Below, one piece after another: positions 5,992-64,000 of a stretch of DNA of 64,000 nucleotides. Below the pieces are notes generated by a model, which did not search any database, was not told the DNA's origin, and saw only the letters and a program-made list of their open reading frames with translations. The first letter of the stretch is position 1. Each line of letters opens with the position of its first letter. This stretch comes from Hahella sp. (GTDB lineage: Bacteria; Pseudomonadota; Gammaproteobacteria; Pseudomonadales; Oleiphilaceae): assembly GCA_028280065.1 (NCBI GenBank), contig JANQMN010000139.1, forward strand, positions 1 to 64,000, in the 5' to 3' direction. The position numbers and the translations under genes were made by a program.

Positions 5992-7602
5992 CTAAAGACC
6001 GGCATACTGTTTTTTAAGGTGGGCGAAGCGGCGGTATTCTTTGTGATCAGGCGGTATATGGCGAACCCGGTGGAAACATTGTTCGGCCTTTTCCCGCAGT
6101 TCCGCAGGTTTATTCTCAGTCTTCAGTTTTTTAACGAGCAGTTGCAGCAGATTCAGATTGAGTGAAATATGGTGTGGCGTATAGGGAATCGCCTTTAACA
6201 TCGCCTGGATAGCGCCGTCGAGATTGTTTTCGCCATGGAGGCGAATGCCTTGCTTATTAAGCTCGGTTGCCTTCTTCCGGTTCTGCAGACTAATGCGGTC
6301 GTCCATAAAGTTATAGATGCCGCTGACATCCAGCTCGGCTTCCGCCGCCTGATCCGCCGCGTTTTGAAGGAACTCGTCAACCTCATCCCCGCGCCCGAGT
6401 TTGATAAGGGTTTTGGCGGCGATTACGGCGGACTCGCCGTTGAGAGGCGACTTGCGCAAATTGGCTTTTTCCTGGACTTGTTCCAAGAGTGAATTCGCGG
6501 TATCCAGGTCTCCGAAGCTGACCTGCACTTGAGCCTCCACCAGTGTCGACTGCAAATCAATTTGATCGCGATCCGCAAATCGCTTTTTCGATCTGCTTAG
6601 GACATCCAATGCTTCCTTGCCCAAACGATTCCTGGCCGAGCCATTGCTGGCTTCCGCTAATACATTGGCAAAGTGGAAATAATGGTCCGGTTCGGCATAG
6701 ATGGATTGGCTTCCCAGTTTGATGACTTTTCGATAAGCCTCGATAGCGCCTTTTTGATCGTCATTGGCGATCCGCATGTCTGCCAGCGCTTTTTGCCTGC
6801 GCACGCTATTCGGTGACTGAATGACTGCCCGCTCCAGAATTTCCTGGGCGGTATGCGGGTCCTGTTGCAGTTCTTTGATCTTGGCCAGAAGGTCGTAGGC
6901 TTCTATCCGGTCACGGTCTTCTTCAATTATCTGCTTGAGATGCTGTTCAGCCGTTTCATACTCATGCTGGTTTATCAATATTTCTGCCAGGCCTAGCCGA
7001 GCCCAGGGATGCTCGCTTTTATCAAGGAGTTCCTCGAACAGTGCCTTTGCCTTGTTCCACTCACCCAGTTTGCTAAGCAACCAGGCTTTGGTCTTGAACA
7101 GCAGCAGGGTATAGCGGTCTTTTTCGGCAAGCCTTTGGTTACAAAGCTTGAGTGCCTGGGCATAGTCAGCCAGATCGATAGCGGCATCGATGTCGCTAAA
7201 GGATTCCTTTTGCTGCAAGGAGATTTTGAGCCGCTTGCCGAGTTCTGCCGGCGTCAACGGTTTGACCAGATAGCCGTCGGGTTCGTTTTCGATTGTGCCC
7301 AATACCTTGTCTCTCGCCACCTCGGCGGTCACGATGAAAAACAAAGCGGAGAATTTCAGCAGGCGTTTTACCCGGAGTTCTTCCAATAGCTCCTGGCCAT
7401 TTTTACCTTCACCGAGTTCGAAGTTACAGAGGATGACATCGTAATCGACATTTTGAATGCCGCTGAGCACGGATTGCGCAGAGCTAGCAGTGCTGACCAG
7501 TTTGACACCCAGATCAATCAGCATTTTCTTGGTGGCGAAGCAGTAGCTGTCCAATGGGTCGACAATGAGAAAGCGTTTTTTGGCAAAATCTTCTAACGAC
7601 AT
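5992..7602 (-). CDS. Receiver-domain protein with TPR repeats, phosphoacceptor Asp replaced by Asn
   Basis: The 536-residue protein has an N-terminal CheY-like receiver domain (about 1-130) and then a long TPR superhelix (about 135-500). The architecture is known from pseudomonads, where such proteins act as signalling scaffolds rather than DNA-binding regulators. In the receiver, Asp15, Thr92 and Lys114 of the active site are present, but the phosphoacceptor position reads VILCNFELG, giving Asn60 (codon AAC) instead of Asp. The domain therefore probably cannot be phosphorylated in the usual way and may work as a constitutive or ligand-sensing pseudo-receiver. No histidine kinase is encoded nearby. 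Family and architecture are firm; function is not known. Confidence 0.87.
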   Translation of the reverse strand: MSLEDFAKKRFLIVDPLDSYCFATKKMLIDLGVKLVSTASSAQSVLSGIQNVDYDVILCNFELGEGKNGQELLEELRVKRLLKFSALFFIVTAEVARDKVLGTIENEPDGYLVKPLTPAELGKRLKISLQQKESFSDIDAAIDLADYAQALKLCNQRLAEKDRYTLLLFKTKAWLLSKLGEWNKAKALFEELLDKSEHPWARLGLAEILINQHEYETAEQHLKQIIEEDRDRIEAYDLLAKIKELQQDPHTAQEILERAVIQSPNSVRRQKALADMRIANDDQKGAIEAYRKVIKLGSQSIYAEPDHYFHFANVLAEASNGSARNRLGKEALDVLSRSKKRFADRDQIDLQSTLVEAQVQVSFGDLDTANSLLEQVQEKANLRKSPLNGESAVIAAKTLIKLGRGDEVDEFLQNAADQAAEAELDVSGIYNFMDDRISLQNRKKATELNKQGIRLHGENNLDGAIQAMLKAIPYTPHHISLNLNLLQLLVKKLKTENKPAELREKAEQCFHRVRHIPPDHKEYRRFAHLKKQYAGL

Positions 7603-28855: not shown

Positions 28856-28870
28856 TTGGTGCCCGGGGCC
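28856..28870. mobile_element. attL of the tRNA-Leu island (15-base core)
   Basis: TTGGTGCCCGGGGCC is identical to 37803-37817, the 3' end of tRNA-Leu(TAA) read on the plus strand. It is therefore the displaced copy of the tRNA end left by site-specific integration, and marks the left edge of an island of about 9 kb. Confidence 0.88.
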
Positions 28871-29008
28871 TGCATACTTTCAGCGTTATATAGCGTTGGT
28901 CTATATCTAAATATTTCCCTTATGTATTAATAGTATAGAACTTTCCCCCGATTTTCTTGTTGTCTAGTGTTGGTTGCGATAGGCTCTCAATTATCTATTT
29001 ATGGCGGG

Positions 29009-30259
29009 ATGAATGGCGGAATGCCGAAACGTGCCCTAGAGCTAACAGCCCAACAAGTAAAAACCCTGAATAAGCCGGGCCAACACTCAGTCGGTGGAAT
29101 CGCAGGACTGAAGATGCAAATCAGTGATTCCGGGGCCAAGAGTTGGGTACTCCGCACCGTTATGGGGGTTAGGAGGCGAGAGATCGGGTTAGGTGCCTAT
29201 CCTGAAGTCAGTATGGCCATGGCAAGGGAGCTGGCCAGGGAGATAAAACAGAAGATCAAACAAGGGATTGACCCCGTTGCCGAACGTCAGGCAATCCGGC
29301 AAAAGTTAATATCCGAACAAGTTAGACAAGTCACGTTCAGGCAGGTTGCCGAACAATTCATCGAGAAGAAAACGCAAGAATTTAAAGAAACCAGCCGTGC
29401 TAAGCAGCGTCAACGATTGGCCAATAGTCTTGAAAACTACGCATTCCCCCTGATTGGATCGTTGCCGGTAGGCAATATTGAGCGCGAACACATCCTGCAA
29501 GTGCTAGAGCCGATTTGGGAAAGTAAATCCCCAACAGCCGAACGGCTGAGAAACAATCTTGAGCGCATTCTGGACCTAGCAGAAGTAAAGGGACTACGCA
29601 CCGGGATGAACCCGGCCAGATGGAAGGGCAACCTATCTCATATTCTCCCAATGCCTTCTAAAGTTTCCAAGGTTGAACACATGGAAGCCTTACCGGTAGA
29701 GGATGTGCCAGCTTTCATGGAAAAACTGCGAAAACTCAACACCACATCGGCTTTAGCTTTACGGTTTGCCGTTCTCACCTGTGCCCGATCTAGTGAAATT
29801 AGGTGGGCAGTGTGGTCGGAAATGGATGTAGACAAGCGCTTATGGACAATACCAGTGGAGCGCATGAAGGCCGGTAAAAAGCACACTATTCCACTGTGTG
29901 ACGAAGCCGTTGAACTTCTAAAGCAATTCAAACCGGACAGGGCAGAAGGTTTGGTTTTTTTGAATATCAATAAACGGTTGTCTGAAAATGCCATGTTAGC
30001 CGTGTTAAAAAAGACCATGAAGCTTGATATCACTCAGCATGGTTTCCGCTCTACCTTCAAAGATTGGGCGAGAACTCATACCCGCTACCCAGACGAAGCC
30101 AGCGAGCTAGCCCTGGCGCATGTTCACGACGATAAAACCCGGGCTGCTTATGCACGGGATGAGCTTCTTGATACGCGCCGCAAGATGATGACGGATTGGG
30201 GCGAGTACTGCCTACACGGTAAGAAGGAGACCGGAAAGGTTATCGAGTTAAAAGCGTGA
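29009..30259 (+). CDS. int: P4-type tyrosine integrase
   Basis: A 416-residue site-specific recombinase with an N-terminal arm-binding domain (DUF4102-type, GLKMQISDSGAKSWVLRTVMGVRRREIGLGAYPEVSMAMARELA), a core-binding domain (about 105-220) and the catalytic domain. Catalytic residues are visible: Arg260 in TCARSSEIRW, His344 and Arg347 in QHGFRSTF, His371 in LALAHVH, and the nucleophile Tyr381 in RAAYARDEL. It should recombine the 15-base core at tRNA-Leu. It lies about 140 bases inside attL. The start is uncertain between ATG at 29009 and ATG at 29021 (MPKRALELT). An inverted repeat with GGTAG/CTACC (30256-30290) follows the stop. Confidence 0.93.
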   Translation: MNGGMPKRALELTAQQVKTLNKPGQHSVGGIAGLKMQISDSGAKSWVLRTVMGVRRREIGLGAYPEVSMAMARELAREIKQKIKQGIDPVAERQAIRQKLISEQVRQVTFRQVAEQFIEKKTQEFKETSRAKQRQRLANSLENYAFPLIGSLPVGNIEREHILQVLEPIWESKSPTAERLRNNLERILDLAEVKGLRTGMNPARWKGNLSHILPMPSKVSKVEHMEALPVEDVPAFMEKLRKLNTTSALALRFAVLTCARSSEIRWAVWSEMDVDKRLWTIPVERMKAGKKHTIPLCDEAVELLKQFKPDRAEGLVFLNINKRLSENAMLAVLKKTMKLDITQHGFRSTFKDWARTHTRYPDEASELALAHVHDDKTRAAYARDELLDTRRKMMTDWGEYCLHGKKETGKVIELKA

Positions 30260-30321
30260 TCCTCGGTAGTTGGCGCTACCAGGGATCACTTACCAAAACC
30301 ACCTGACAGAGAGGTGACATC

Positions 30322-30528
30322 ATGGCTGATACAAGTGTATCAATATCGGAAGCGCAAACCCAAATGGGGCATCTGTTGAAAATCGAGGGCTGTCTACTTA
30401 GCATTCAAAAGTTAAATAGAACGGATATAGAACCTTCAGAGCAAGTTGAGCTTGAAGCCCTTACTGAATATGCAATGAAGCACTTTTGTCTTATTTCTGA
30501 ATGGCTAGAAGAAAAGGGAGGTGTCTAG
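30322..30528 (+). CDS. Small island protein of unknown function
   Basis: A 68-residue acidic, helical protein (AQTQMGHLLKIEGCLLSIQKLNRTDIEPSEQVELEALTEYAMKHFCLISEWLEEKGG). GAGAGGTGAC before the ATG gives a good ribosome binding site. No signal or membrane segment. It is followed almost at once by another small gene (start 30531), so the two form a small operon. The family is not recognised. Confidence 0.6.
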   Translation: MADTSVSISEAQTQMGHLLKIEGCLLSIQKLNRTDIEPSEQVELEALTEYAMKHFCLISEWLEEKGGV

Positions 30529-30530
30529 CT

Positions 30531-30800
30531 ATGGAAAACCAGTCCGACAACCAACACCTTTGCCACCTAGAAGATCAATCCACATTTATCAATCCGAATG
30601 CTAGCAGAAGCGATCTGGCAGAAAGCATCGTTTTACGCCTGACTCAGCTTGAGGAACTACTTGCTGACTTTATTTGTACTGATTTGACCCAGCTACAGTT
30701 AAGTTCTTCATTGTTGGAGCTTATTCAGTGCCGGGTTTCGGAGACTAAAAACCTGTTCAATGCTCACTCAGAGAAAGTAGAAAAAGAGCTAAAAAACTAA
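30531..30800 (+). CDS. Small island protein of unknown function
   Basis: An 89-residue acidic protein with a polar N-terminus and two predicted helices (DLAESIVLRLTQLEELLADFI and LSSSLLELIQCRVSETKNLFNAH). I choose the ATG at 30531 because GGAGGTG precedes it; that start is 3 bases after the stop of the upstream gene. A region with paired ACCAGCC and GGCTGGT arms (about 30810-30865) follows, possibly a structured mRNA end. The family is not recognised. Confidence 0.6.
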   Translation: MENQSDNQHLCHLEDQSTFINPNASRSDLAESIVLRLTQLEELLADFICTDLTQLQLSSSLLELIQCRVSETKNLFNAHSEKVEKELKN

Positions 30801-30901
30801 CTTCGAATCGACCAGCCTAGGGTAGCTCCCGAAAGGCCGGAAACCTTCACCGGCTTGGCTGGTTATCTTCTTTGAGGGGATCGCTTGAAGGAGCGTTTAA
30901 T

Positions 30902-31546
30902 ATGGATAAATCTTCATTTGAGCCATTGTATGATGCTTTAGAAAAATATTTTGATAAACCTTTTGAAGAGTTGCCTACTGAGCTTCAACAGCGAGTCAAA
31001 GATGAGTTTATAGGGAAATGGGATCTGTGGACACCAGCGGATAGGAGATCTCAGGCAACATGGTCGGATTGCCAAAATGATCCCGATCCCGAAAACCAAA
31101 AGTTGATGCAACAGGGATTTGACTTTGAAATCCGTTTGCAATGGTTACAAGAGGAGCTTATTGGTATGGAACTGCAAAAACCCCCACACGATAAGCAAAC
31201 GGAATTAAAATTGTGGGAGGAGAGGCAGAAAAGATATGTTCAAGAACGGGCAGAAATTCAAGAGAAGCTTCGTAGCATCATACGGTCAGAACAAAATGAA
31301 CTACCTATGAAGGTTAACAAGTCTGTTGGGTCTCAACTCAATTCTATTAGAGACTGGGTGCTAAGGGCCCGAAATCTGGCGGACGAATGTCGCAAAAAGA
31401 ACAGCAGACTTTCTCAACTGAAAATTGCAGAGAAAATTGCTCCTGTTTTAGAGAAAGATGGTTATCTCAACCAAAACGGCCATCCTTTCAAAGCTGAGAC
31501 AATAAAAAAGCAAGCACTAAGTGGTTACTTATCTCGAAGAAAATAG
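30902..31546 (+). CDS. Hypothetical coiled-coil-rich island protein
   Basis: A 214-residue soluble protein, highly charged. The N-terminal half (FEPLYDALEKYFDKPFEELPTELQQRVKDEF) includes a Trp-rich patch (KWDLWTPADRRSQATW). The middle holds a long Glu/Gln/Lys/Arg helix (about 85-140), and the basic C-terminus (KKNSRLSQLKIAEKIAPVLEKDGYLNQNGHPFKAETIKKQALSGYLSRRK) looks like a DNA-binding helix-turn-helix of the kind that reads a domain with resistance to phage or plasmid context. The start at 30902 has GGAG 8 bases upstream. The function is not known. Such proteins are frequent in integrase-bearing islands. Confidence 0.6.
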   Translation: MDKSSFEPLYDALEKYFDKPFEELPTELQQRVKDEFIGKWDLWTPADRRSQATWSDCQNDPDPENQKLMQQGFDFEIRLQWLQEELIGMELQKPPHDKQTELKLWEERQKRYVQERAEIQEKLRSIIRSEQNELPMKVNKSVGSQLNSIRDWVLRARNLADECRKKNSRLSQLKIAEKIAPVLEKDGYLNQNGHPFKAETIKKQALSGYLSRRK

Positions 31547-31747
31547 GGCGTTGCCCCAGATGCCCTAACTTGCCCTAAGTAAATTTCAATATTAATCAAT
31601 TGGATAGCAAGATTTTTATTGCTATTCACTTTTACTTGCATGCCCTCTATGCCCTGTTTGAATACCAACTTGTATCGATGAAAACATACAAGTATGGGTT
31701 TGAAGCGGAAGCAACCTATACCAACTAATTTTCGGCATAGGTGATCT
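31547..31747. other. Intergenic stretch with TGCCCT repeats and an inverted repeat
   Basis: TGCCCT occurs four times in two clusters (about 31560-31580 and 31640-31660). ACTTGTAT (31668-31675) and ATACAAGT (31686-31693) form an 8-base inverted repeat across a 10-base spacer, 55 bases before the AlpA-like gene. It could be an operator for that regulator or part of an origin or attachment arm region. Confidence 0.4.
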
Positions 31748-31978
31748 ATGAAAAGTAAAAACCAAATTGATGAAACTCAACTTATCAAATCTCTAAAGGA
31801 AGGGTCCCGCCTTCAATACTCCACATCAGAAACAGCGTTTTTCCTTCAGCTACGGGAAGACACGTTGAGGGCTTGGGCATGTTTCGGGAAAGGTCCCATC
31901 AAGCCTCGCAAGATTGGAAATCGGCTTGCCTGGATGGCTTGCGACATTCGCCAATTAATGGGAATGGAGGCTGCCTGA
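31748..31978 (+). CDS. AlpA/excisionase-like helix-turn-helix protein
   Basis: A 76-residue DNA-binding protein with a MerR/AlpA-type winged helix: YSTSETAFFLQLREDTLRAWACFGKGPIKPRKIGNRLAWMACDIRQLMG. The pattern of a helix-turn-helix followed by a beta-wing that places ARG/LYS next to GNRL is typical. Members regulate integrase or act as excision directionality factors in islands like this one. AGGTG lies 6 bases before the ATG. It ends 1 base before the next gene, so the two are coupled. Confidence 0.75.
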   Translation: MKSKNQIDETQLIKSLKEGSRLQYSTSETAFFLQLREDTLRAWACFGKGPIKPRKIGNRLAWMACDIRQLMGMEAA

Positions 31979-31979
31979 A

Positions 31980-32297
31980 ATGACTGATAAAAGACAGGCC
32001 CCCGAAGAGGCCCAGAAGAAAAGCTTAGACAACTCCACTGTAGCGCAACTATCACGCTTGCTCAAGGCTCTCAGAGAGGCGGGGGCTCAGGGTATTACTA
32101 CAATTCAAGCACGGGAGAAGCTGGATGTAATGATGCCTGCAGCTCGGGTTCATGAGCTACGTCATACTGAAGGTTTTAACATACAAACCATTTGGCAAAC
32201 TTCAGAAAATGCCCAAGGCCATAAGCACCGAAATGCTCGTTATGTGTTAATGCCAGGTGTTTATAAGTCTGATTACAGGAAGGTGGCCAATGGGTAG
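31980..32297 (+). CDS. Helix-turn-helix protein
   Basis: A 105-residue protein. The central part (STVAQLSRLLKALREAGAQGITTIQAREKLDVMMPAARVHELRHTEGFNIQT) matches the winged helix domain found in many phage and island proteins, where the recognition helix contains PAARVHELR. The C-terminus (HKHRNARYVLMPG) completes the wing. It probably binds DNA. It starts 1 base after the upstream regulator gene and overlaps the next start at 32290. Confidence 0.72.
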   Translation: MTDKRQAPEEAQKKSLDNSTVAQLSRLLKALREAGAQGITTIQAREKLDVMMPAARVHELRHTEGFNIQTIWQTSENAQGHKHRNARYVLMPGVYKSDYRKVANG

Positions 32298-32601
32298 TTT
32301 CGAAATTCCCATCAATGACCAATACAGGGTTGAGCTGGATCGAAACTCTTGGGCAGTTTCAAAATGCAAACCCAGAAAAGACGGGAAGAAAGTTTGGCAA
32401 CAGTGTGCATGGTGCAAAACATTGCAGCAGGCGGCGGAGTACGTGCGGGAACGGCTTTTATTTGAAACTGAGGCCAATGATGCGAATGAAATTATCAATG
32501 CTGTCTCCGCCTCTACCGAGCTTATAGCAATGGCTATCCGTGAAGCTGAGATACCTAACTCTTGGAAATCTGCACAAGCTTTGAATGGTTGTGTTGAATA
32601 G
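32290..32601 (+). CDS. Hypothetical island protein
   Basis: A 103-residue soluble protein (MGSFEIPINDQYRVELDRNSWAVSKCKPRKDGKKVWQQCAWCKTLQQAAEYV...). The N-terminal half carries an IxxxYxVExDxxxW pattern and CxW-C cysteines, and the second half is helical. I choose the ATG at 32290 because GGAAGG lies 9 bases upstream; it overlaps the end of the previous gene by 8 bases. I recall similar unannotated proteins beside replication-like genes in integrative elements, but cannot name the family. Confidence 0.6.
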   Translation: MGSFEIPINDQYRVELDRNSWAVSKCKPRKDGKKVWQQCAWCKTLQQAAEYVRERLLFETEANDANEIINAVSASTELIAMAIREAEIPNSWKSAQALNGCVE

Positions 32602-32609
32602 GGGGCTTT

Positions 32610-33020
32610 ATGGCTGTAACTCGCCAAAAAGCAAAAGGCCGCAAGGATGCCGGCAACTTTGCTGCACTCCCGCATAGAATAATGGAATCGAGTAATTACA
32701 TCCGGCTAAGTAGCCATGCGATCCGACTACTGATGGAGATATTGAAACAATATAACGGTCACAACAACGGTGATCTCTGCGTTACATGGAAATGGATGCA
32801 CGATAGGGGGTTTAGGTCGCCAAGTACTTTGGACAGGTCCATTAAGGAGCTTGCCCACTATGGTCTGATCATGCTTACTCGGCAGGGTGGGCGGCATAAG
32901 CCTAATTTGTATGCACTTACTTGGCAGGCTATTGATGAATGTAAGGGAAAGCTAGAAGTGAGCGCAACCAGACAACCACCAGGTCAGTGGAAAGAGGAAA
33001 AATCGGATTTTAAGGCATGA
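32610..33020 (+). CDS. Winged helix replication-like protein
   Basis: A 136-residue protein with a winged-helix core: IRLSSHAIRLLMEILKQYNGHNNGDLCVTWKWMHDRGFRSPSTLDRSIKELAHYGLIMLTRQGGRHKPNLYALTWQAIDEC. This is the pattern of phage and plasmid replication-initiation-type DNA-binding proteins. The C-terminal tail is short and basic. Four copies of a 19-20 base repeat begin 16 bases after its stop codon, the usual layout for an initiator and its iterons. The role in replication is inferred. Confidence 0.68.
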   Translation: MAVTRQKAKGRKDAGNFAALPHRIMESSNYIRLSSHAIRLLMEILKQYNGHNNGDLCVTWKWMHDRGFRSPSTLDRSIKELAHYGLIMLTRQGGRHKPNLYALTWQAIDECKGKLEVSATRQPPGQWKEEKSDFKA

Positions 33021-33035
33021 TCAAAATTAATTTCG

Positions 33036-33171
33036 GTACTCCTTATGCGTATTAATGTACTCCCTATGTGTATTAATTGTCTAAAAAATGGTCTAAAAAT
33101 AGAGGGTTTGTAGTCCGTATGTGTATTAGTCAGAGCATTTTTCAGCCTTTTTGTACTCCGTATGTGTACAC
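33036..33171. repeat. Four iteron-like direct repeats
   Basis: Copies of GTACTCCnTATGTGTATTA occur at 33036-33055, 33057-33076, 33110-33129 and 33153-33171, all in the same orientation, with 1-5 mismatches. They lie directly after a winged-helix gene. Two copies are adjacent and the other two are 53 and 43 bases further on. Spacing by full helical turns is only approximate. A replication origin or a regulator-binding array is likely. Confidence 0.65.
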
Positions 33172-33329
33172 CTTTATAGATATACCAAGGGCTTTTGGTC
33201 TTAAAGATTTATTCGGGGTCAGTAGAGAACACAAAATAACTCAATTTTCCCTGTTGCAATTAGGTCGGAACACGAATTTGGCCGAAGGTTACAAACTATA
33301 TTTCGCACAAAAAATATTGGAGAACAATT

Positions 33330-33911
33330 ATGGCTAGAGGCTACCACATGGGTCATGCGCAGTTTAGGCGATACATTGATGGGCAGCCCAGGATAAAAGC
33401 AACGGACTGCAAGAGCCTTTACAACTCCGATGTTGGAGCACAGGGTTATTTTACCTGGCCGGGTGGTCGACAAGTCTATTACAAAGTCAGGCATGCCGAA
33501 GGCTGGGATCGAGTGGCAGAGTTTAGTTACAAGGGTGTAAAGACCCCTGCTCCCATCCTTAAAACGAAACAGTATTTAGGTGAAAGATACTGGCTTGTCT
33601 GCGGGGCTTGCCTAAAACGACGTACAGCACTCTACTTCAATTTCTACAATCAGATTATTTGCCGGGAGTGTGCCGGATTGCACTACGCTTGCCAAAGCGA
33701 ACGGCCTGCTGTGAGGATCGAAAGGAAGATACGAAAGAAGCGCTTAAAGCTGTGGGGCCCAGGTCAGAGCCTACTTGATTCCAGTCAACGTTATTCCAAG
33801 CCTAAGTGGAAACGCTGGCATACTTTCGAGAAAGAGAAACAGGAAGTTGCAAGGCTGGAGTATCAATGGATTGAGATGCTTAGAGAGTCGGATTTTGGGC
33901 TATTCTTTTGA
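33330..33911 (+). CDS. Zinc-ribbon island protein
   Basis: A 193-residue protein. The N-terminal third (MARGYHMGHAQFRRYIDG) is of a type seen in mobile-element proteins. A central zinc ribbon follows with CGAC and CREC pairs around a beta hairpin (YWLVCGACLKRRTALYFNFYNQIICRECAGLHYACQSE), then a basic helical C-terminus (RIERKIRKKRLKLWG...). I know it as a widespread uncharacterised family in integrative elements and prophages of proteobacteria; binding to nucleic acid is likely from the ribbon and basic tail. The start ATG has GGAG about 8 bases upstream. Confidence 0.72.
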   Translation: MARGYHMGHAQFRRYIDGQPRIKATDCKSLYNSDVGAQGYFTWPGGRQVYYKVRHAEGWDRVAEFSYKGVKTPAPILKTKQYLGERYWLVCGACLKRRTALYFNFYNQIICRECAGLHYACQSERPAVRIERKIRKKRLKLWGPGQSLLDSSQRYSKPKWKRWHTFEKEKQEVARLEYQWIEMLRESDFGLFF

Positions 33912-33992
33912 AGTCTAAGTTGAGTTTGCCCTGAATCGAGTGTTTAGCACGCTTTTCAGGGGAAGTGGCTAAACCATCAGTAAAGAAAAAAC

Positions 33993-34376
33993 ATGAAAAG
34001 ACTTTGTCAAATAACTCTGCTCATACTGTACGGTACCTGTTCGTTCGCAGAGGTTGACCCATTTTCTGAAATGGCAAGAACCAATCTTCCACAACTTCTA
34101 AAAATTATGGCTGCGGAATATCACAATAAAGTACCCATTGAAACCTCGGATTTGACCATCATTGACGCCATAGCGATTGATCGACACTTAACACTTATAG
34201 CTGTTTTAAAAACCTCGCATCAGAAAACTCCAAATAGGATGGCTCTAGTTAGTTACATATGTTCTTCAACCACCTTAAGCACCATTATCAAAAGCGGAGG
34301 CACATGGAGTTATCAGTATTTGAACGAATCTGGCATGAAGATTAGTGAATTGTCAGTTTATCCTGGGGATTGTTAA
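33993..34376 (+). CDS. Exported small protein
   Basis: A 127-residue protein with a signal peptide (MKRLCQITLLILYGTCSFAEV), so it should be periplasmic. The mature part is mixed alpha/beta with cysteines in SYICSS and at the C-terminus (PGDC). These may form a disulfide. I do not recognise a family. It precedes the PrtN-like gene, 76 bases apart. The context with a colicin-like gene leaves open a role in immunity or release, but nothing in the sequence shows it. Confidence 0.55.
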   Translation: MKRLCQITLLILYGTCSFAEVDPFSEMARTNLPQLLKIMAAEYHNKVPIETSDLTIIDAIAIDRHLTLIAVLKTSHQKTPNRMALVSYICSSTTLSTIIKSGGTWSYQYLNESGMKISELSVYPGDC

Positions 34377-34452
34377 GAGGTTTTAGGGTAAACCCTGTGG
34401 TGTTCTGGAAATAAGATAATCGACAAATTCTTGTGAGAATTGAAGGCATCTA

Positions 34453-34725
34453 ATGAACACAGTATTTCTGCTATTAGCAGAATTTGAAACCGGGCAAATT
34501 CCTTTACGCAATATAGCTGTGAAGTTTCTAGGTATGTCAGAGAAGGAGGCTAAACGCCGTGCTGGTTCGCAGAACTTGCCTTTTCCTGTGTACCGCGGTA
34601 GTGAATCTCAAAAAGGTGAATGGTTAGTGCACGCCCAGGATCTAGCCACCTTCATTGACACACAGAGAGCCAAAGCGACCGAGATATGGAAAAAACTCAA
34701 CCAAGCACCTAATCGCCTGCGGTAG
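34453..34725 (+). CDS. prtN: PrtN-family pyocin activator
   Basis: A 90-residue DNA-binding protein of the PrtN family: the start MNTVFLLLAEFETGQIPLRNIAVKFLG, a helix-turn-helix part, LPFPVYRGSESQKGEWLVHAQDLATFIDTQRAKA. In Pseudomonas aeruginosa PrtN activates pyocin genes after RecA-mediated loss of PrtR, linking DNA damage to bacteriocin production. Here it precedes a colicin-like gene with a LexA-like box by 130 bases, which fits that theme. A PrtR repressor is not seen in this window. Confidence 0.78.
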   Translation: MNTVFLLLAEFETGQIPLRNIAVKFLGMSEKEAKRRAGSQNLPFPVYRGSESQKGEWLVHAQDLATFIDTQRAKATEIWKKLNQAPNRLR

Positions 34726-34821
34726 GAATAATTTTTTCAAAACCACTACTTTTCCGAAAAAGTTGTTCATGCAACTTCGGGCAGTTGCTCAAATAGAGTT
34801 GTGTCAATACAATTAGGTTGG

Positions 34822-34837
34822 CTGTACATATATACAA
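34822..34837 (+). promoter_or_regulatory. LexA-like SOS box
   Basis: CTGTACATATATACAA fits the LexA consensus CTGT-N8-ACAG with one mismatch at the last base and an AT-rich centre. It lies 18 bases before the ATG of the colicin-like gene and overlaps its promoter region. Confidence 0.65.
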
Positions 34838-34855
34838 TATTTTCGGGGGTTTGTA

Positions 34856-35062
34856 ATGGGCTGGAATGACGACGGGTCGCATGGTAACCATAGCCAAAAT
34901 TCTGATGGTTCCGGACGAGGCGGCAAAGGCCATGGCAATGACAATGATAATGGCCGAGATAATGATGATCGGAGTCCCGGCTTAGGAGAAATGCCGGATA
35001 ACATTGCTGATTTATCGCATCAGCGGAACACAGATGATGGTCGCGGTACTGGTGGTCGATGA
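34856..35062 (+). CDS. Colicin-like N-terminal fragment (first frame)
   Basis: A 68-residue frame opened by ATG with GGGGG 8 bases upstream. It is very rich in Gly, Asn, Asp, His and Ser (MGWNDDGSHGNHSQ, GRGGKGHGNDNDNG), the composition of the disordered translocation segment at the start of group A colicins and S-type pyocins. The end reads LGEMPDNIADLSHQRNTDD. A LexA-like box lies just upstream. The frame stops at 35062, but a homologous LGxGEMPDxIxD motif continues in another frame at 35004-35612, so this is likely the first part of a broken or frameshifted gene. Confidence 0.55.
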   Translation: MGWNDDGSHGNHSQNSDGSGRGGKGHGNDNDNGRDNDDRSPGLGEMPDNIADLSHQRNTDDGRGTGGR

Positions 35063-35612
35063 TCTTGGGGTCGGCGAAATGCCCGATCATATTGAGGACT
35101 ATTCCAACCACCGAACGAATGCGATGAGGGTTAGCTCTGCAAGAGGTGGATTTGAAAACACTTATGGGCTAACAAAATTTGGTTCGCTTGTTTCTGGCGT
35201 TTTAGCCTTGGCAAATCCTGTAGCAGGAATGTTGGCGTCGTTTGCCTGGGATGGTTATTCGACCAGGAAGATGCAGCCTGGTGAAACGTATGCAGAATAT
35301 GCAGGTCGAATGAAAGCATCTAATGCAAGCCTCGGCCCGCTTGGATCGGTAGGACTTGCTTTAACTGGTGCATACCTTAGAGCACCAAGAGGTGCAGTTA
35401 AAGCCGGTGAATTATTAGGCGACGCCGTTGCAGGAGCGCCGCCAGGAACCTTAAGAGCACCCGGTCTCAATATGCAAAACAACGATTCACGTGGTTTTCT
35501 TGCTCCCAAACCGCAACCGGCCAACCAACAGCCCGCCAATACGACACCTAATCAAAACTACACCGGGTTAAATATCTCTGGTTTTCTCAATCCTAAAAAA
35601 TTCTGGGGTTAA
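35034..35612 (+). CDS. Colicin-like continuation in a second frame
   Basis: A 192-residue frame (from ATG 35034) that would complete the colicin-like protein. It contains VGEMPDHIEDYSNHRTN, a repeat of the motif in the upstream frame. A hydrophobic Gly/Ala-rich part follows (FGSLVSGVLALANPVAGMLASFAWDGYSTRKM) with a further hydrophobic run (about 100-115), then a Gln/Pro/Asn-rich tail. The two GEMPD copies are 88 bases apart, so a duplication of 88 bases would put the second in a different frame. Either a +1 shift joins the two parts or the second part starts independently at 35034. No nuclease or pore domain is recognisable. Confidence 0.45.
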   Translation: MMVAVLVVDDLGVGEMPDHIEDYSNHRTNAMRVSSARGGFENTYGLTKFGSLVSGVLALANPVAGMLASFAWDGYSTRKMQPGETYAEYAGRMKASNASLGPLGSVGLALTGAYLRAPRGAVKAGELLGDAVAGAPPGTLRAPGLNMQNNDSRGFLAPKPQPANQQPANTTPNQNYTGLNISGFLNPKKFWG

Positions 35613-35715
35613 GTTATGTCGCAAGTTTTCCTGCACTCGAATGGCTCTGCGCAATCTGAACCATTCCGGGCGTTAACCTTTGTTAAGGTCATTTCTTGAT
35701 TAGAAAAGATTCTGG
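35613..35715. other. Short gap after the colicin-like gene
   Basis: A region of about 100 bases with no clear gene; the short repeat GTTAACCTTTGTTAAGGTCA might fold. Nothing further is seen. Confidence 0.3.
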
Positions 35716-35877
35716 CTAAGGCTTTTTAGGTTGAGGTTCCTTGTCCGAAATAGATAGTTCCTTTCTCCAGGGAGCCAATAAAGCGTTCCTCCGCTTCTCT
35801 AAATCCTTCTTCTTCTCGTCCGGCATCGGCTCCTTCCTGATCCTTTTTAGTGTTTGCCAAATTGTCTCGTTGTTCAT
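35716..35877 (-). CDS. 53-residue basic hypothetical protein
   Basis: A small gene on the minus strand, opposing the colicin-like gene. The product is highly charged and helix-prone (ETIWQTLKRIRKEPMPDEKKKDLEKRRNALLAPWRKEL, then SDKEPQPKKP). GGGGTG lies about 8 bases before the ATG. It is short and unrecognised, but the codon content and start signal favour a real gene. It runs in the same direction as the two small genes further right. Confidence 0.4.
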   Translation of the reverse strand: MNNETIWQTLKRIRKEPMPDEKKKDLEKRRNALLAPWRKELSISDKEPQPKKP

Positions 35878-35907
35878 ACACACACCCCAATTTGTCTAAC
35901 AACTGAC

Positions 35908-36174
35908 TTAATTACCCTTTGAACCTTTATCGCGTCTATTTTTATTCGTAGAGTCTTCATTCCTCAATAGGTTGTCTACATCCACGGCAAGCAAAAACTT
36001 ATAAGCATTTCTAAGCTTGGGGTGTTCCTTCAGGATTTGAACAGAGTCCTTTTCCATTTGGTCACCGGAATCTAGTTGTTTGATAATATCGTTTTCCGTT
36101 TGAATTGATCGCATTATCGGCCTTTTGAGATTCGTCAGGTGGTTGGACTGAGTCATGTTTTCTAAATCCAGCAC
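35908..36174 (-). CDS. 88-residue charged hypothetical protein
   Basis: A soluble, charged, helical protein (LDLENMTQSNHLTNLKRPIMRSIQTENDIIKQLDSGDQMEKDSVQILKEHPKLRNAYKFLLAVDVDNLLRN). A shorter version from an internal Met is possible; no strong start signal is seen. It is one of three small minus-strand genes between the colicin-like locus and the toxin-antitoxin pair. The family is not recognised. Confidence 0.4.
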   Translation of the reverse strand: MLDLENMTQSNHLTNLKRPIMRSIQTENDIIKQLDSGDQMEKDSVQILKEHPKLRNAYKFLLAVDVDNLLRNEDSTNKNRRDKGSKGN

Positions 36175-36231
36175 GAAGAGAAATGGCGCTCTGTTTGTAA
36201 TCTAAGTATAGATCACCTAAGTAGACTTTGA

Positions 36232-36402
36232 TTAAATTATGATCAGTTTGCGCCAGTCAGGAATGGGCTGGAAGCATTCCAAGCATATAAACTCTGTTAT
36301 CTCTGTTTCCTGCAGCGTATTTTCGTCGGTAGTAATGCGCTGCCATTCAACACAGCTATTTGATCCGCAACAAAGGCAAATGGGACTGATGTCCTTGTCC
36401 AT
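36232..36402 (-). CDS. 56-residue zinc-ribbon small protein
   Basis: A gene too short for usual thresholds, with AAGGA about 8 bases before the ATG. The product has CLCC and CLEC cysteine pairs about 28 residues apart (ICLCCGSN ... FICLECFQPIPDW), a plausible zinc-binding ribbon. The rest is polar. No known family. A palindrome copy lies 93 bases upstream (36495-36512), between this gene and the divergent panA gene. Confidence 0.5.
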   Translation of the reverse strand: MDKDISPICLCCGSNSCVEWQRITTDENTLQETEITEFICLECFQPIPDWRKLIII

Positions 36403-36494
36403 GGGATATCCTTAATAGGGCTCTCCGAAGGGAGCTAATACTATGAAAAGCAAAACACTTGAGTTCGTATTTTACTGCTTAGGTCGGGAGTGTA

Positions 36495-36512
36495 TGTAAG
36501 AGATGTCTCAAA
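36495..36512. promoter_or_regulatory. Imperfect copy of the island palindrome TGTAAGAGATGTCTCAAA
   Basis: It matches the perfect palindrome at 28169-28186 at 15 of 18 positions. It lies between the leftward small zinc-ribbon gene and the rightward panA gene. A shared regulator is suggested. Confidence 0.4.
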
Positions 36513-36682
36513 AAGTTGTAGGTAATTTTCCACTGAGAGCTAGTGCTATGACAGAAAATGTCGTTACTACTTATTATCATATAATACATACTGTACTGAA
36601 TAATTCTTATAGTGTCCTAGACTTGAGTGTAGGAGAATAGGGCGCAATTTTGGATGGTAATAGCTTTGATGGAGTTTGGAAG

Positions 36683-37123
36683 ATGAAAACGAACGTGTTT
36701 GACGTTGCCTCATACATCCTTCAACAACAGGGTGAAATGTCTGCAATGAAGCTTCAAAAGCTAGTTTATTACAGCCAAGCTTGGTCTTTGGTTTGGGATG
36801 ATCGGCCTCTTTTCGGTGAAAAAATTGAAGCTTGGGCTAATGGGCCTGTAGTCAGGGAGTTATATGATTCTCACAGAGGGCGATTTTCTGTAAATGCTGA
36901 CATGTTTTCTAGTTGTGCGACTGGTCAGCTAAATCAGGAGCAAGTTGAAACAATCAATGCTGTTTTGTACACATACGGAGACAAGTCTCCTCAATGGCTG
37001 AGTGACCAAACTCATAGCGAGCAGCCATGGATCGAAGCACGGAAAGGACTAGATGACAGCGCAAGAGGAAATGAAGAGATTTCTCTGGCAACAATGTCAG
37101 AATACTATTCTTCGATTAGATAA
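36683..37123 (+). CDS. panA: Panacea-domain antitoxin (PanA/SocA type)
   Basis: A 146-residue protein with the Panacea domain: VFDVASYILQQQGEMSAMKLQKLVYYSQAWSLVWDDRPLFGEKIEAWANGPVVRELYDSHRG, the GP-VRELY core being the hallmark of this chaperone-like antitoxin family (formerly DUF4065). I start at ATG 36683, with GGAG 9 bases upstream; an earlier frame opens at 36650. The stop overlaps the next ATG by one base (TAATG), indicating translational coupling to its toxin partner. In PanAT systems panA neutralises a toxin encoded in the same operon. Confidence 0.85.
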   Translation: MKTNVFDVASYILQQQGEMSAMKLQKLVYYSQAWSLVWDDRPLFGEKIEAWANGPVVRELYDSHRGRFSVNADMFSSCATGQLNQEQVETINAVLYTYGDKSPQWLSDQTHSEQPWIEARKGLDDSARGNEEISLATMSEYYSSIR

Positions 37124-37566
37124 TGAGTAAAAAAAATAGACGCAAAACGGTGCCTCAAAGCGCTTCTCGAAATGAGGATAAGAAGGAGGCCCGTTTTAAA
37201 CACCCTAATATAACAGATGGCAAACCATGCTGGCGTTTTTCAAACACTGATAGAGATGGTGATTTTGCATGGCCAAAGGGTGAGCCTGAAGAAGGGACAA
37301 TAGTTACCAAGCTTCACGATTTTGATAGCATGAAGTGGAAGGATATCGAAGGTTCAAGGCATCATTTTTTAACTCCAAGTAGTTTGAGTTCTTCCGCTGT
37401 TAAGAGACTCGTTGAAATCGAGAAAGATGATCAGATAGATCATTTGTTTTCATTTGCACTTGGAGGAGTGCAGAGGATCATTTGTATTAGGCAGAATGAC
37501 ATTGCGATGCTACTTTGGTATGACCCTTGCCACGCTGTATGTCCATCCAGTAGAAAGCACACTTAA
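37123..37566 (+). CDS. Putative toxin partner of panA
   Basis: A 147-residue protein with a disordered, basic N-terminus (KKNRRKTVPQSASRNEDKKEARF) and a compact C-terminal domain. That domain contains HFLTPSSLSSSAVKRLVEIEKDDQIDHLFSFALGGVQRIICIRQNDIAMLLWYDPCHAVCPSSRKHT. The ending DP-HxVxPS-KHT, with FSFALGG-RI before it, matches a family seen in toxin-like genes paired with antitoxins. In PanAT loci the toxin is variable, so it may be a distinct toxin type. It is coupled to panA by a one-base overlap. The molecular activity is not shown by the sequence. Confidence 0.55.
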   Translation: MSKKNRRKTVPQSASRNEDKKEARFKHPNITDGKPCWRFSNTDRDGDFAWPKGEPEEGTIVTKLHDFDSMKWKDIEGSRHHFLTPSSLSSSAVKRLVEIEKDDQIDHLFSFALGGVQRIICIRQNDIAMLLWYDPCHAVCPSSRKHT

Positions 37567-37802
37567 AACTACTACCGAAATGGCGCTTTTGCCCCTTCAT
37601 GTTTATAGGTGGGTATCTTGGTGAGTAGGGCTTCGCCTTTTGGCTACATCATGTATAGCAAAAAAACTGAAAGGGAATAATTTATTGCAATATAAGGTTG
37701 TCGGTTAAATTAGTTCGGGAAAAGTGATTCGATTTTTCTTCGGCGGGCTCTTTGGCGGGTAAAGTAATTATTGCCTTATAACATGCTGATTTTTCAAATG
37801 AA
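37567..37802. other. Non-coding right end of the island
   Basis: No gene is seen between the toxin gene and attR. The stretch is AT-rich and includes GGCGGG copies (about 37741-37757) that might be integrase arm sites, but this is only a guess. Confidence 0.35.
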
Positions 37803-37817
37803 TTGGTGCCCGGGGCC
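37803..37817. mobile_element. attR core at the 3' end of tRNA-Leu(TAA)
   Basis: TTGGTGCCCGGGGCC is identical to attL at 28856-28870. Here it forms the last bases of the tRNA-Leu 3' end, including its CCA, so the tRNA remains intact after integration. Confidence 0.88.
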
Positions 37818-37891
37818 GGAATCGAACCGGCACGGTATCAAATACCGAGGGATTTTAAGTCCCTTGCGTCTACCAATTTCGCCACCCGGGC
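37804..37891 (-). tRNA. leuZ: tRNA-Leu(TAA)
   Basis: An 88-base class II tRNA with encoded CCA. Acceptor arms GCCCGGG and CCCGGGC pair. The D arm has GGCGAAATTGGTAGACGC, the anticodon loop CTTAAAA gives TAA (UUA/UUG codons), the variable arm is TCGGTATTTGATACCGT, and the T arm is GCCGGTTCGATTCCGGC. Gene order gacA-uvrC-pgsA-tRNA-Gly-tRNA-Cys-tRNA-Leu equals uvrY-uvrC-pgsA-glyW-cysT-leuZ of E. coli. The 3' end is the integration target of the island. Confidence 0.97.
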
Positions 37892-37911: not shown

Positions 37912-37983
37912 TGGAGGCGCGGGTCGGAATCGAATTGGACCGACACTCGGCGGCGTACACCGTCCGTTGCTTTATAGCCTGCC
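37912..37983 (-). repeat. Pseudo-tRNA-Cys with hairpin insertion
   Basis: A degenerate copy of the neighbouring tRNA-Cys. It shares the 3' acceptor/T-arm sequence (TGGAGGCGCGGGTCGG, plus strand), then has an extra 16 bases (37935-37950, TTGGACCGACACTCGG) where the gene has only one base in the T-loop. The rest diverges and lacks the anticodon arm. The inserted GGACCGACACTCGG resembles the insertions in the pseudo-tRNA-Gly copies at 38121 and 63909. Confidence 0.75.
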
Positions 37984-37996
37984 AAATAAAGCAAAT

Positions 37997-38070
37997 TGGA
38001 GGCGCGGGTCGGAATCGAACCGGCGTACACGGAGTTGCAGTCCGCTGCATAACCACTCTGCCACCGCGCC
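37997..38070 (-). tRNA. cysT: tRNA-Cys(GCA)
   Basis: A 74-base tRNA with encoded CCA. Acceptor arms GGCGCGG and CCGCGCC pair. The D arm includes GGCAGAGTGGTTATGCAG, the anticodon loop CTGCAAC gives GCA, and the T arm is CCGGTTCGATTCCGACC. It lies between tRNA-Gly and tRNA-Leu as in E. coli cysT. Confidence 0.97.
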
Positions 38071-38083
38071 TGAATAACTAAAG

Positions 38084-38111
38084 AGCAAAAACCCCGAGTG
38101 AATCGGGGTTT
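38084..38111 (-). terminator. Rho-independent terminator between tRNA-Gly and tRNA-Cys
   Basis: On the minus strand AAACCCCGA pairs with TCGGGGTTT around TTCAC and is followed by TTTTTGCTC. It would end transcripts coming from pgsA/tRNA-Gly before tRNA-Cys, so tRNA-Cys and tRNA-Leu may have their own promoter or depend on readthrough. Confidence 0.7.
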
Positions 38112-38120
38112 CATATTTTT

Positions 38121-38170
38121 TGGAGCGGGAAACGAGATTCGATCCGGTCGGCGCTCCGATCGCGACCCCT
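38121..38170 (-). repeat. Pseudo-tRNA-Gly 3' half with hairpin insertion
   Basis: Identical to tRNA-Gly over TGGAGCGGGAAACGAGATTC, then carries an insertion TCCGGTCGGCGCTCCGA (38143-38159) at the T-loop, and resumes tRNA-like as TCGCGACCCC. Downstream sequence is unrelated to the tRNA. It resembles the insertion in the pseudo-tRNA-Cys and in the copy near 63909. Confidence 0.75.
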
Positions 38171-38225
38171 ATGAAAATGCCGGGTCGCGTTTCGAGAAGT
38201 TTTTATTTAGAACTTCCTTTAATTT

Positions 38226-38301
38226 TGGAGCGGGAAACGAGATTCGAACTCGCGACCCCAACCTTGGCAAGGTTGTGCTCTACCAGCTGAGCTATTCCCG
38301 C
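38226..38301 (-). tRNA. glyW: tRNA-Gly(GCC)
   Basis: A 76-base tRNA with encoded CCA. Acceptor GCGGGAA pairs with TTCCCGC, the anticodon loop TTGCCAA gives GCC, the D arm is GCTCAGCTGGTAGAGC and the T arm is CGCGAGTTCGAATCTCG. It reads GGC/GGU codons. It lies after pgsA as glyW does in E. coli. Several broken copies of this gene surround it. Confidence 0.97.
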
Positions 38302-38629
38302 AAAAACTTTCAAACTAAACACTGTATGCCAACTGGACACAGTGTTAACGGTAGAGCACACTTTTTACATGTGCTCATCCCAGCCACAAATCACAGATTT
38401 GTGTCGCTCCGCAGGGCAAAACATGTTTTGCTGTTTCCTGCTCCGCCCAGCTGAGCTATTCCCGCAATAACCTTTTAACAAAACACCGTATGCTAACTCG
38501 CTACAGTGTTGACGGTAGAGCACGCTTTTTATATGTGCTCATCCCAGCCACAAATCACAGATTTGTGTCGCTCCGCAGGACAAAACATGTTTTGCTATTT
38601 CCTGCTTCGCCCAACTGAGCTATTCCCGT
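38302..38629 (-). repeat. Two tandem 164-base units carrying the tRNA-Gly 5' end
   Basis: Units 38302-38465 and 38466-38629 are mostly identical. Each opens (minus strand) with a tRNA-Gly 5' segment GCGGGAATAGCTCAGCTGG or close to it. Inserted DNA with the palindrome GCAAAACATGTTTTGC, the hairpin ACAAATC/GATTTGT and a GAGCACA/TGTGCTC stem follows. The true tRNA-Gly 5' end lies at the same 164-base period (38297, 38461, 38625), so real gene plus units form a three-copy tandem array. It fills most of the 440 bases between tRNA-Gly and pgsA. Confidence 0.8.
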
Positions 38630-63716: not shown

Positions 63717-64000
63717 TCTAATAATCATCCAAAAAGTGGATCTACATAGGAGTACGAGGATTTAAGAGTAATTAGGAAGAGCAGAGCGGGAAACGTGACT
63801 GGATAGGACCGGCTTCCGGTGGCAAGCGACCTGTCGCGACCCCAACTAAAATAGTGGAGCGAGCCAGTATATTGTATAGAAAGGGTTTCAAAAATGAGTT
63901 AGAAGAAATGGAGCGGGAAACGAGATTCGAACCGGCCGACGCTCGGTCGCGACCCCAACATAAAAAGTGGAGCGAGCCAGTATATTGTATAAAAATGGTT
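63717..64000. repeat. Tandem tRNA-Gly-derived repeats at the window end
   Basis: Two units follow the DUF924 gene. The first (63784-63846) is a degenerate tRNA-Gly 3' copy. The second (63909-63959) reads TGGAGCGGGAAACGAGATTC, identical to tRNA-Gly, then carries the GC-rich insertion CCGGCCGACGCTCGG at the T-loop and resumes TCGCGACCCC. After both comes TGGAGCGAGCCAGTATAT (63855 and 63968). The same chimera occurs beside the tRNA cluster at 38121. No gene is seen here. Confidence 0.8.

Follow-up and report, generated by a model that had tools for sequence, protein, structure and literature searches.

Anatomy of the tRNA cluster and its tail units

The window analysed here, a stretch of 64,000 nucleotides from Hahella sp. 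(contig JANQMN010000139.1), contains a minus-strand tRNA cluster with intact genes for tRNA-Gly(GCC) (38226..38301, 69.6 bits with Rfam RF00005), tRNA-Cys(GCA) (37997..38070), and tRNA-Leu(TAA) (37804..37891), all called by both ARAGORN and RF00005. The Gly and Cys genes are each followed by one extra copy of their own 3' end, in which the 5' half is missing and the CCA is complete. The tail scan found no such tail behind the tRNA-Leu gene here, and two behind its counterpart in the relative G003. The tRNA-Gly unit (38121..38225, minus strand) consists of a spacer, a hairpin termed H1, an insert, and a tail that runs to the CCA. H1, CGCGACCC...GGGTCGCG, lies at 38161..38189, and its 3' arm is the remnant of the tRNA variable loop and T-stem; the stem is enriched among the units, as described below. 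The 15-nt insert TCGGAGCGCCGACCG (38145..38159) can form a TCGG/CCGA hairpin and sits between tRNA positions 52 and 53, and the tail copy of positions 53-76 (38121..38144) has no mismatch to its parent over positions 55-73 and an A for T at position 54. The tRNA-Cys unit (37912..37996, minus strand) has the same layout, with the insert CCGAGTGTCGGTCCA at 37936-37950 and the tail at 37912-37935. The covariance model R1 gives the two units 57.4 and 39.6 bits, respectively, both being training sequences of the model.

A further intact tRNA-Gly gene lies at contig positions 64022-64097, its near end 22 bases beyond the window, and the copy at 63909 belongs to a tandem array with a period of 113 bp just downstream of it. 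The proximal unit of this array (63909..64000, minus strand; 62.2 bits, also a training sequence) has its insert at 63933-63946 and its tail at 63909-63932, while the distal unit (63783..63908, minus strand) is decayed and carries a 28-nt double insert at 63806-63833. An earlier sequence-only reading had placed related hairpins at 38121, 37912, and 63909, and all three are present there on the minus strand. It had taken the third for another lone copy of the hairpin, which is instead a tRNA-Gly tail within an array, and it had located the insertion at the T-loop; the site is indeed fixed, but the insert, 14-15 nt in the Gly, Cys, and second Gly tails, stands at 52/53 ahead of the T-loop and not inside it, with tRNA sequence resuming on both sides. 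ARAGORN and RF00005 reported only the intact tRNA genes in the window and called none of the tails. Having no complete cloverleaf, the tail units do not qualify as functional tRNAs.

The window also holds a 9-kb integrative element in the 3' end of the tRNA-Leu gene (28856-37817), with a 15-bp direct repeat, TTGGTGCCCGGGGCC, at both ends (28856 and 37803). It encodes a tyrosine integrase (28967-30259), an int-alpA RNA (30810-30878), a PrtN/excisionase-like gene (34453-34725), and a SocA/Panacea-like gene (36650-37123), and was studied solely for a comparison of attachment-site cores. Beside the end of this element, the stretch 37708-37732 resembles a decayed tRNA-Gly tail (4 mismatches in 19), a likeness that may be due to chance.

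Upstream of the tRNA-Gly gene, two 5' head repeats were observed on the minus strand. The first (38446..38465) copies tRNA-Gly positions 1-20, after which structured sequence replaces the D-loop, and the second (38610..38629) precedes it by 164 bp when read in the direction of the tRNA. Such heads are the mirror image of the tails: copies of tRNA-Gly, tRNA-Phe, and tRNA-Arg-CCG stand upstream of the genes with the D-loop broken by other sequence. Other head sites are located in L135 (1259-1278), L105 (1075-1094), and L139 (816-835); in the Phe head the D-stem resumes (GAGCAGGGG) after 74 nt, and an fMet head was also found upstream in L199. The idea that heads and tails pair into a nested tRNA was dropped, as heads occur beside few of the 283 tRNA calls.

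Geometry and pairing of the insert

The length of the insert is narrowly distributed. Tail matching in the own genome and in G003 yielded 18 distinct units, and in these it measures 14 nt in 5, 15 nt in 9, and 28-29 nt in 4. A total of 77 distinct units were collected, 72 of them with recognisable positions 44-52, and here the insert has 14 nt in 24 units, 15 nt in 35, 16 nt in 2, 28-30 nt in 5, and other lengths in 6, with 59 of the 77 units lying outside the tail-match set and mostly found by the model, which favours a length of 14-15 nt. The six inserts of odd length include three of 10 nt from G043 and three that are misregistered. The doubled inserts are two modules placed serially at one point. 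In addition, a full-length tRNA-fMet gene in G199 (L198, 1501-1591), which is still called by ARAGORN, carries a 14-nt insert at 52/53, and thus the insertion is not confined to truncated copies.

The CCGA/TCGG core had been proposed to form a hairpin, and the wider alignment bears this out, as the insert pairs with itself and covaries. In alignment A1, composed of 17 tail-match units from the own genome and G003, the named structure, namely the T-stem remnant, the insert hairpin, and the pair 53-61, gives pairs in 84.4% of cells and a covariation score of 0.540, where shuffling yields 0.205 (sd 0.033). When the structure was slid along the alignment the covariation reached at most 0.20, although the structure was derived from the same 17 sequences and is favoured over its slid versions for that reason. 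All four pairs of the insert hairpin change on both sides. Because the differences between the parent tRNAs account for part of the T-stem signal, the independent evidence comes from the insert helix. A1 holds 17 of 19 distinct tail units, omitting one identical Leu unit and one double-insert fMet unit, and the set from which it was drawn is also without some decayed distal units. Covariation in 31 further units was 0.480 versus 0.153 in shuffles, all but two of these units having been found by the model and being biased towards pairing. In alignment A3, from which the rows of the window and G003 were removed and to which two were added, MAFFT places some of the 14-nt inserts one column out of register, and the pair counts come out lower as a result.

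The individual modules show the same property: their sequences vary and the pairing is kept. Stems of at least 4 pairs are present in 24 of 38 distinct modules, compared with a mean of 8.1 and a maximum of 16 in shuffles, and the 38 modules contain 136 Watson-Crick pairs and a single G-U pair, located in a stem extension. Stems that are so nearly pure Watson-Crick leave room for a constraint at the DNA level. The H1 and fold analyses covered 66 of the 77 units, leaving out the G043, misregistered, and unrecognised ones. An H1 stem of at least 5 pairs was found in 20 of the 66 units, against 3.4 expected, and the predicted folds contain H1 in 41 units, the insert hairpin in 23, and the T-stem in a single unit.

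Taken alone, the hairpin does not stand out: with up to 1 mismatch, CCGACNCTCGG gave 2 matches in the window versus 2.27 expected, which is not above chance. Searching the own genome for T-loop and module combined gave two zero-mismatch matches, both of them known copies, and with up to 3 mismatches 38 matches versus 26 in the reversed control. The module-only pattern gave 9 matches and 9 in the reversed control, so that no dispersed repeat was seen in this genome with that pattern. In G003 there were 6 module-only matches versus 2 in the control, two of the six being known tail copies. What exceeds chance is the placement at 52/53 of a tRNA remnant, not the hairpin motif.

These counts bear on the proposal, also made in the sequence-only reading, that a REP-type transposase was the agent, in other words that a dispersed REP-like hairpin is moved by a RAYT/Y1 transposase with a preference for tRNA T-arms. 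Some modules, such as CCGGATGGCCGG, resemble REP stems, and across the single contig of G209 the module-only pattern matched 38 times versus 7 in the control. However, 6 of these matches lie in the tail array and the others vary in their letters, and the reversed control for this pattern changes the CG content, with which the excess has to be read; own-genome matches equal their control, and module letters vary generally while pairing persists. A Y1 transposase was present in 27 of 34 carriers versus 16 of 26 genomes taken as non-carriers (19 with no match in the order or class searches and 7 not listed there by name), so that no clear link between transposase and carriers emerged. It was absent from 7 of the 34 carriers, including G209 and G364, each a single contig. 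REP and BIME elements and the Hahella modules are alike as short GC-rich hairpins in intergenic DNA; unlike REP/BIME, the modules in the own genome are tied to tRNA tails, need no linked transposase, and have no conserved stem sequence. We therefore regard movement by a RAYT/Y1 transposase as highly improbable. Two other origins were set aside as unlikely, integron attC because the GTT triplet is not kept and an IS91-like target because the motif GTTC is not kept, several tails reading GATC in both comparisons.

Distribution and possible upkeep of the arrays

The surroundings of all 42 Rfam-listed tRNA genes of the own genome, a 6.68-Mb draft, and of all 58 in G003 were scanned for tails; the query was the terminal 20-24 bases of each tRNA, searched on both strands of the loci and allowing 3 mismatches at most. 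Tails stand behind 3 of the 42 genes (two Gly and one Cys) and behind 7 of the 58 (Gly, Leu-TAA, two fMet, Met, Pro-GGG, and Pro-CGG), always on the strand of the tRNA. In the remaining five genomes of the genus, the same scan found no tails at the Gly-Cys-Leu cluster. The covariance model R1, built from the tail-match units, separates the units from real tRNAs, which score at most 28.1 bits in the 11 loci tested. In the genus, apparently Hahella, it found units in 7 of 7 genomes down to 30.1 bits, with 33 matches. In the wider searches, where stricter filters make the counts lower bounds (they lose G004 in the family search and G016 in the order search), matches occurred in 8 of 163 genomes and 3 of 16 genera of the family, in 26 of 390 genomes and 16 of 143 genera of an even sample of the order, and in 2 of 369 genomes sampled evenly from the class, both of which belong to the same order. 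Within the class sample, the element is confined to this one order.

Of the 25 order genomes with a match besides the own genome, 24 have a tail behind its own tRNA, and the host tRNAs overall are Gly, Pro, fMet, Met, Phe, Cys, and Leu. A model-based collection across genomes recovered more copies in the tails of further tRNAs. An exact-pattern scan of named genomes returned 12 stretches, of which 7 are near a tRNA (Natronospirillum and Marinobacterium twice each, Alcanivorax, a Halieaceae MAG, and Hahella), another is a tail located at the end of a contig, and the remaining 4 are unlinked. Units are mostly spaced by about 70-140 bp, and the longest arrays reach 7 units, as behind the Pro-CGG gene of G209 with a spacing of 99 bp. 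In G413, the stretch 1381-1860 of L204 contains tandem Phe-like tails with module and terminators and gives three model matches in a 3-kb locus without a tRNA; it is possibly an orphan array. In G011, one of two matches (L174) lies in a 1.6-kb stretch without a tRNA.

The tails follow their neighbours closely. The own tRNA is strictly the closest isoacceptor variant in 50 of 55 arrays and tied in 5, another variant never being closer, among arrays that had been pre-selected at no more than 3 mismatches to the own tRNA. Of the 30 arrays with at least two tails, 13 have a proximal tail that matches better than the distal tail, 1 has a proximal tail that matches worse, and in 16 the two match equally; for one of the 13 (the window's tRNA-Gly) this depends on the questionable stretch with 4 mismatches beyond tRNA-Leu. 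One array each from E. coli and G043 is among the 30, and a few of the total of 61 arrays are isolated stretches with 4 mismatches, perhaps due to chance. Copying of processed tRNA, another agent that had been suggested, is disfavoured by the genus search, in which all 33 of the 33 model matches lie within arrays behind their own tRNA.

That tails track their own tRNA and that distal units decay would also be expected of neutral debris, namely tandem tRNA duplicates that have lost their 5' parts and stay similar solely through gene conversion with the parent gene. Pseudo-tRNAs of full length but with a damaged T-arm, the fMet gene of L198 and Gly copies in L083, point the same way. The L083 copies, from G043, are five near full-length pseudo-tRNA-Gly sequences (537-1650 and 6796-7126) without CCA, in which the T-loop is replaced by CTCAGGGTTAAAGAGT or close variants, and they are interspersed with real tRNA-Gly and tRNA-Glu genes. 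Debris of this kind leaves the 14-15 nt quantum, its doubling, the fixed site, and the covariation unexplained, and the module is common to seven tRNA identities in several families. We consider neutral debris an unlikely explanation. Local duplication alone does not explain the likeness of the module across the seven identities, which is the least explained step.

A recombinase provides another way to place tRNA tails beside a tRNA gene. The 3' end of an intact tRNA is duplicated next to it both in att direct repeats and in the Hahella units, and G53 is a common border of tRNA attachment sites. The units might accordingly be att-like scars of a site-specific recombinase that cuts the T-arm, integrated together with their tail copies, the module being a recombinase-binding or folded single-strand site. 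The tail copy begins at G53, distal units are decayed, stems are almost purely Watson-Crick, and the L204 array stands without a tRNA in 3 kb; moreover, the terminator behind the window's Gly tail is by eye the one directly after the tRNA in G003, the likeness being weaker for Cys. On the other hand, the unit spacers in G003 are by eye unrelated between arrays at different tRNAs, only the module and the H1 design being shared, which argues against a common mobile backbone. Unlike att repeats, the units have no element between them, they mostly recur every 70-140 bp or so, and the hairpin breaks the left half of the site, with tRNA sequence resuming on both of its sides. The window's ordinary integrative element uses a 15-bp acceptor-stem core. 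Two exact patterns had no match in viral contigs, 2 phage records matched with a plain tRNA-Pro tail only, and 64 plasmid records matched, none over more than 80% of the query, with plain tails or partial GC-rich stretches among the matches listed (15 of 64). No integrase-bearing element is flanked by the units, and no site was present on phages or plasmids in the collections and with the patterns and queries used. A recombinase scar is, in our assessment, an improbable origin.

Relation to RtT RNA and possible role of the units

The closest known system is RtT RNA, described from tyrT of E. coli. In the E. coli tyrTV repeats, the T-arm of tRNA-Tyr runs up to GGTTCGA, a structured insert follows, and then the tRNA-Tyr tail. 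RtT and the Hahella units are alike in that they stand behind a tRNA gene, end in the 3' tail of that same tRNA with CCA, and have a T-arm broken by a structured insert; the exceptions among the Hahella-type units are L204 and L174, whose fetched stretches contain no tRNA. Across the class, a search with RF00391 found RtT in 65 of 369 genomes, 23 of them above the cut-off, counts that are lower bounds under the stricter filters. Of 26 RtT loci (E. coli and 25 class-wide, L220-L244), 22 continue into the tail of the neighbouring tRNA itself, and in 18 a T-arm GGTTCG immediately precedes the insert, one more being ambiguous. The RtT insert thus starts about six bases further in than the Hahella-type insert. 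The two also differ in length, the RtT insert measuring 64-94 nt in the T-loop (18 loci with a placeable start) and the Hahella-type insert 14-15 nt at 52/53, and in identity, with Tyr, Gln, and Ser tails in these RtT loci as opposed to the Gly, Pro, fMet, Met, Phe, Cys, and Leu tails found here.

The RtT model itself does not recognise the Hahella-type units. RF00391 had no match in the own genome under the stricter filters, and it did not reach its cut-off in any of 11 tail loci, while it found 3 of 3 E. coli copies used as a positive control. At the gathering score, Rfam gave no RtT match in the whole window and no family at cut-off at the hairpin copies; at a permissive threshold, the two tail regions had only below-cut-off matches besides tRNA, none of them to RF00391. 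The view that the repeat belongs to no described family therefore stands as far as Rfam goes at the hairpin copies, but it overlooked the close parallel with RtT RNA. Since the design is the same and the model misses the 11 tail loci, we set the units apart from RF00391, filing them by analogy as elements that may work like RtT and not as members of that family. According to an excerpt of PMC4986893, which cites Bosl and Kersten (1991), RtT is released as RNA during tRNA processing, and the same excerpt assigns it a role in the stringent response. A literature search returned no description of the present element, including in the excerpts of PMC4986893, PMC7657543, and PMC8138268, which is no proof that it is unpublished.

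The explanation that we prefer, and to which we give about an even chance, is that these are rtT-like tRNA-tail elements, that is, units, often in tandem, directly behind a tRNA, each with a truncated tail from the variable loop to the CCA whose T-arm is split by a hairpin of 14-15 nt. What the data show is the anatomy, a constant site of insertion, covariation in the hairpin, tails that match their own tRNA best, arrays that are local, and the restriction to one order within the class sample. Unequal exchange or gene conversion with the neighbouring tRNA gene would have multiplied the units and kept them similar to it, and the module may be retained for a role of the unit as a folded RNA, either within the tRNA transcript or in its read-through. 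We would guess that a tRNA-like CCA end that is unable to fold the T-arm/acceptor helix engages factors of tRNA 3'-end processing or binding. We hold a putative trailer function of the units, as distinct from this guess, with moderate confidence. A terminator-like hairpin lies between the tRNA or the preceding tail and the unit in 25 of 66 units, and many tails would therefore be transcribed by read-through only, if at all. These terminators are the main evidence against an RNA function; the insert hairpin, favoured in only 23 of the 66 predicted folds, the near absence of G-U pairs from the module stems, and the model-match loci L204 and L174 without a tRNA also speak against the preferred explanation. 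It can be speculated that an order-specific DNA process writes 14-15 nt palindromic modules of like shape and unlike sequence, singly or serially, at 52/53 of tRNA copies, so that the modules, the RtT inserts, and the D-loop inserts of the head repeats form one family of tRNA-arm grafting events, but we regard this as a long shot.

Returning to the rtT-like elements, the core idea of the sequence-only reading, one hairpin design at one structural place in the tails of different tRNAs, was right, and the wider alignment strengthens it through the covariation and the fixed site; copies were not limited to the window, nor were the inserts unrelated. The agents that it proposed are not supported. 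Taken together, our results suggest that RtT exemplifies a broader design in Gammaproteobacteria, in which a structured insert is placed in the T-arm of a truncated tRNA tail and repeated behind its parent. The second type described here, with other tRNAs, in another order, and with a simple fixed geometry and many natural variants, makes the function of such repeats testable.
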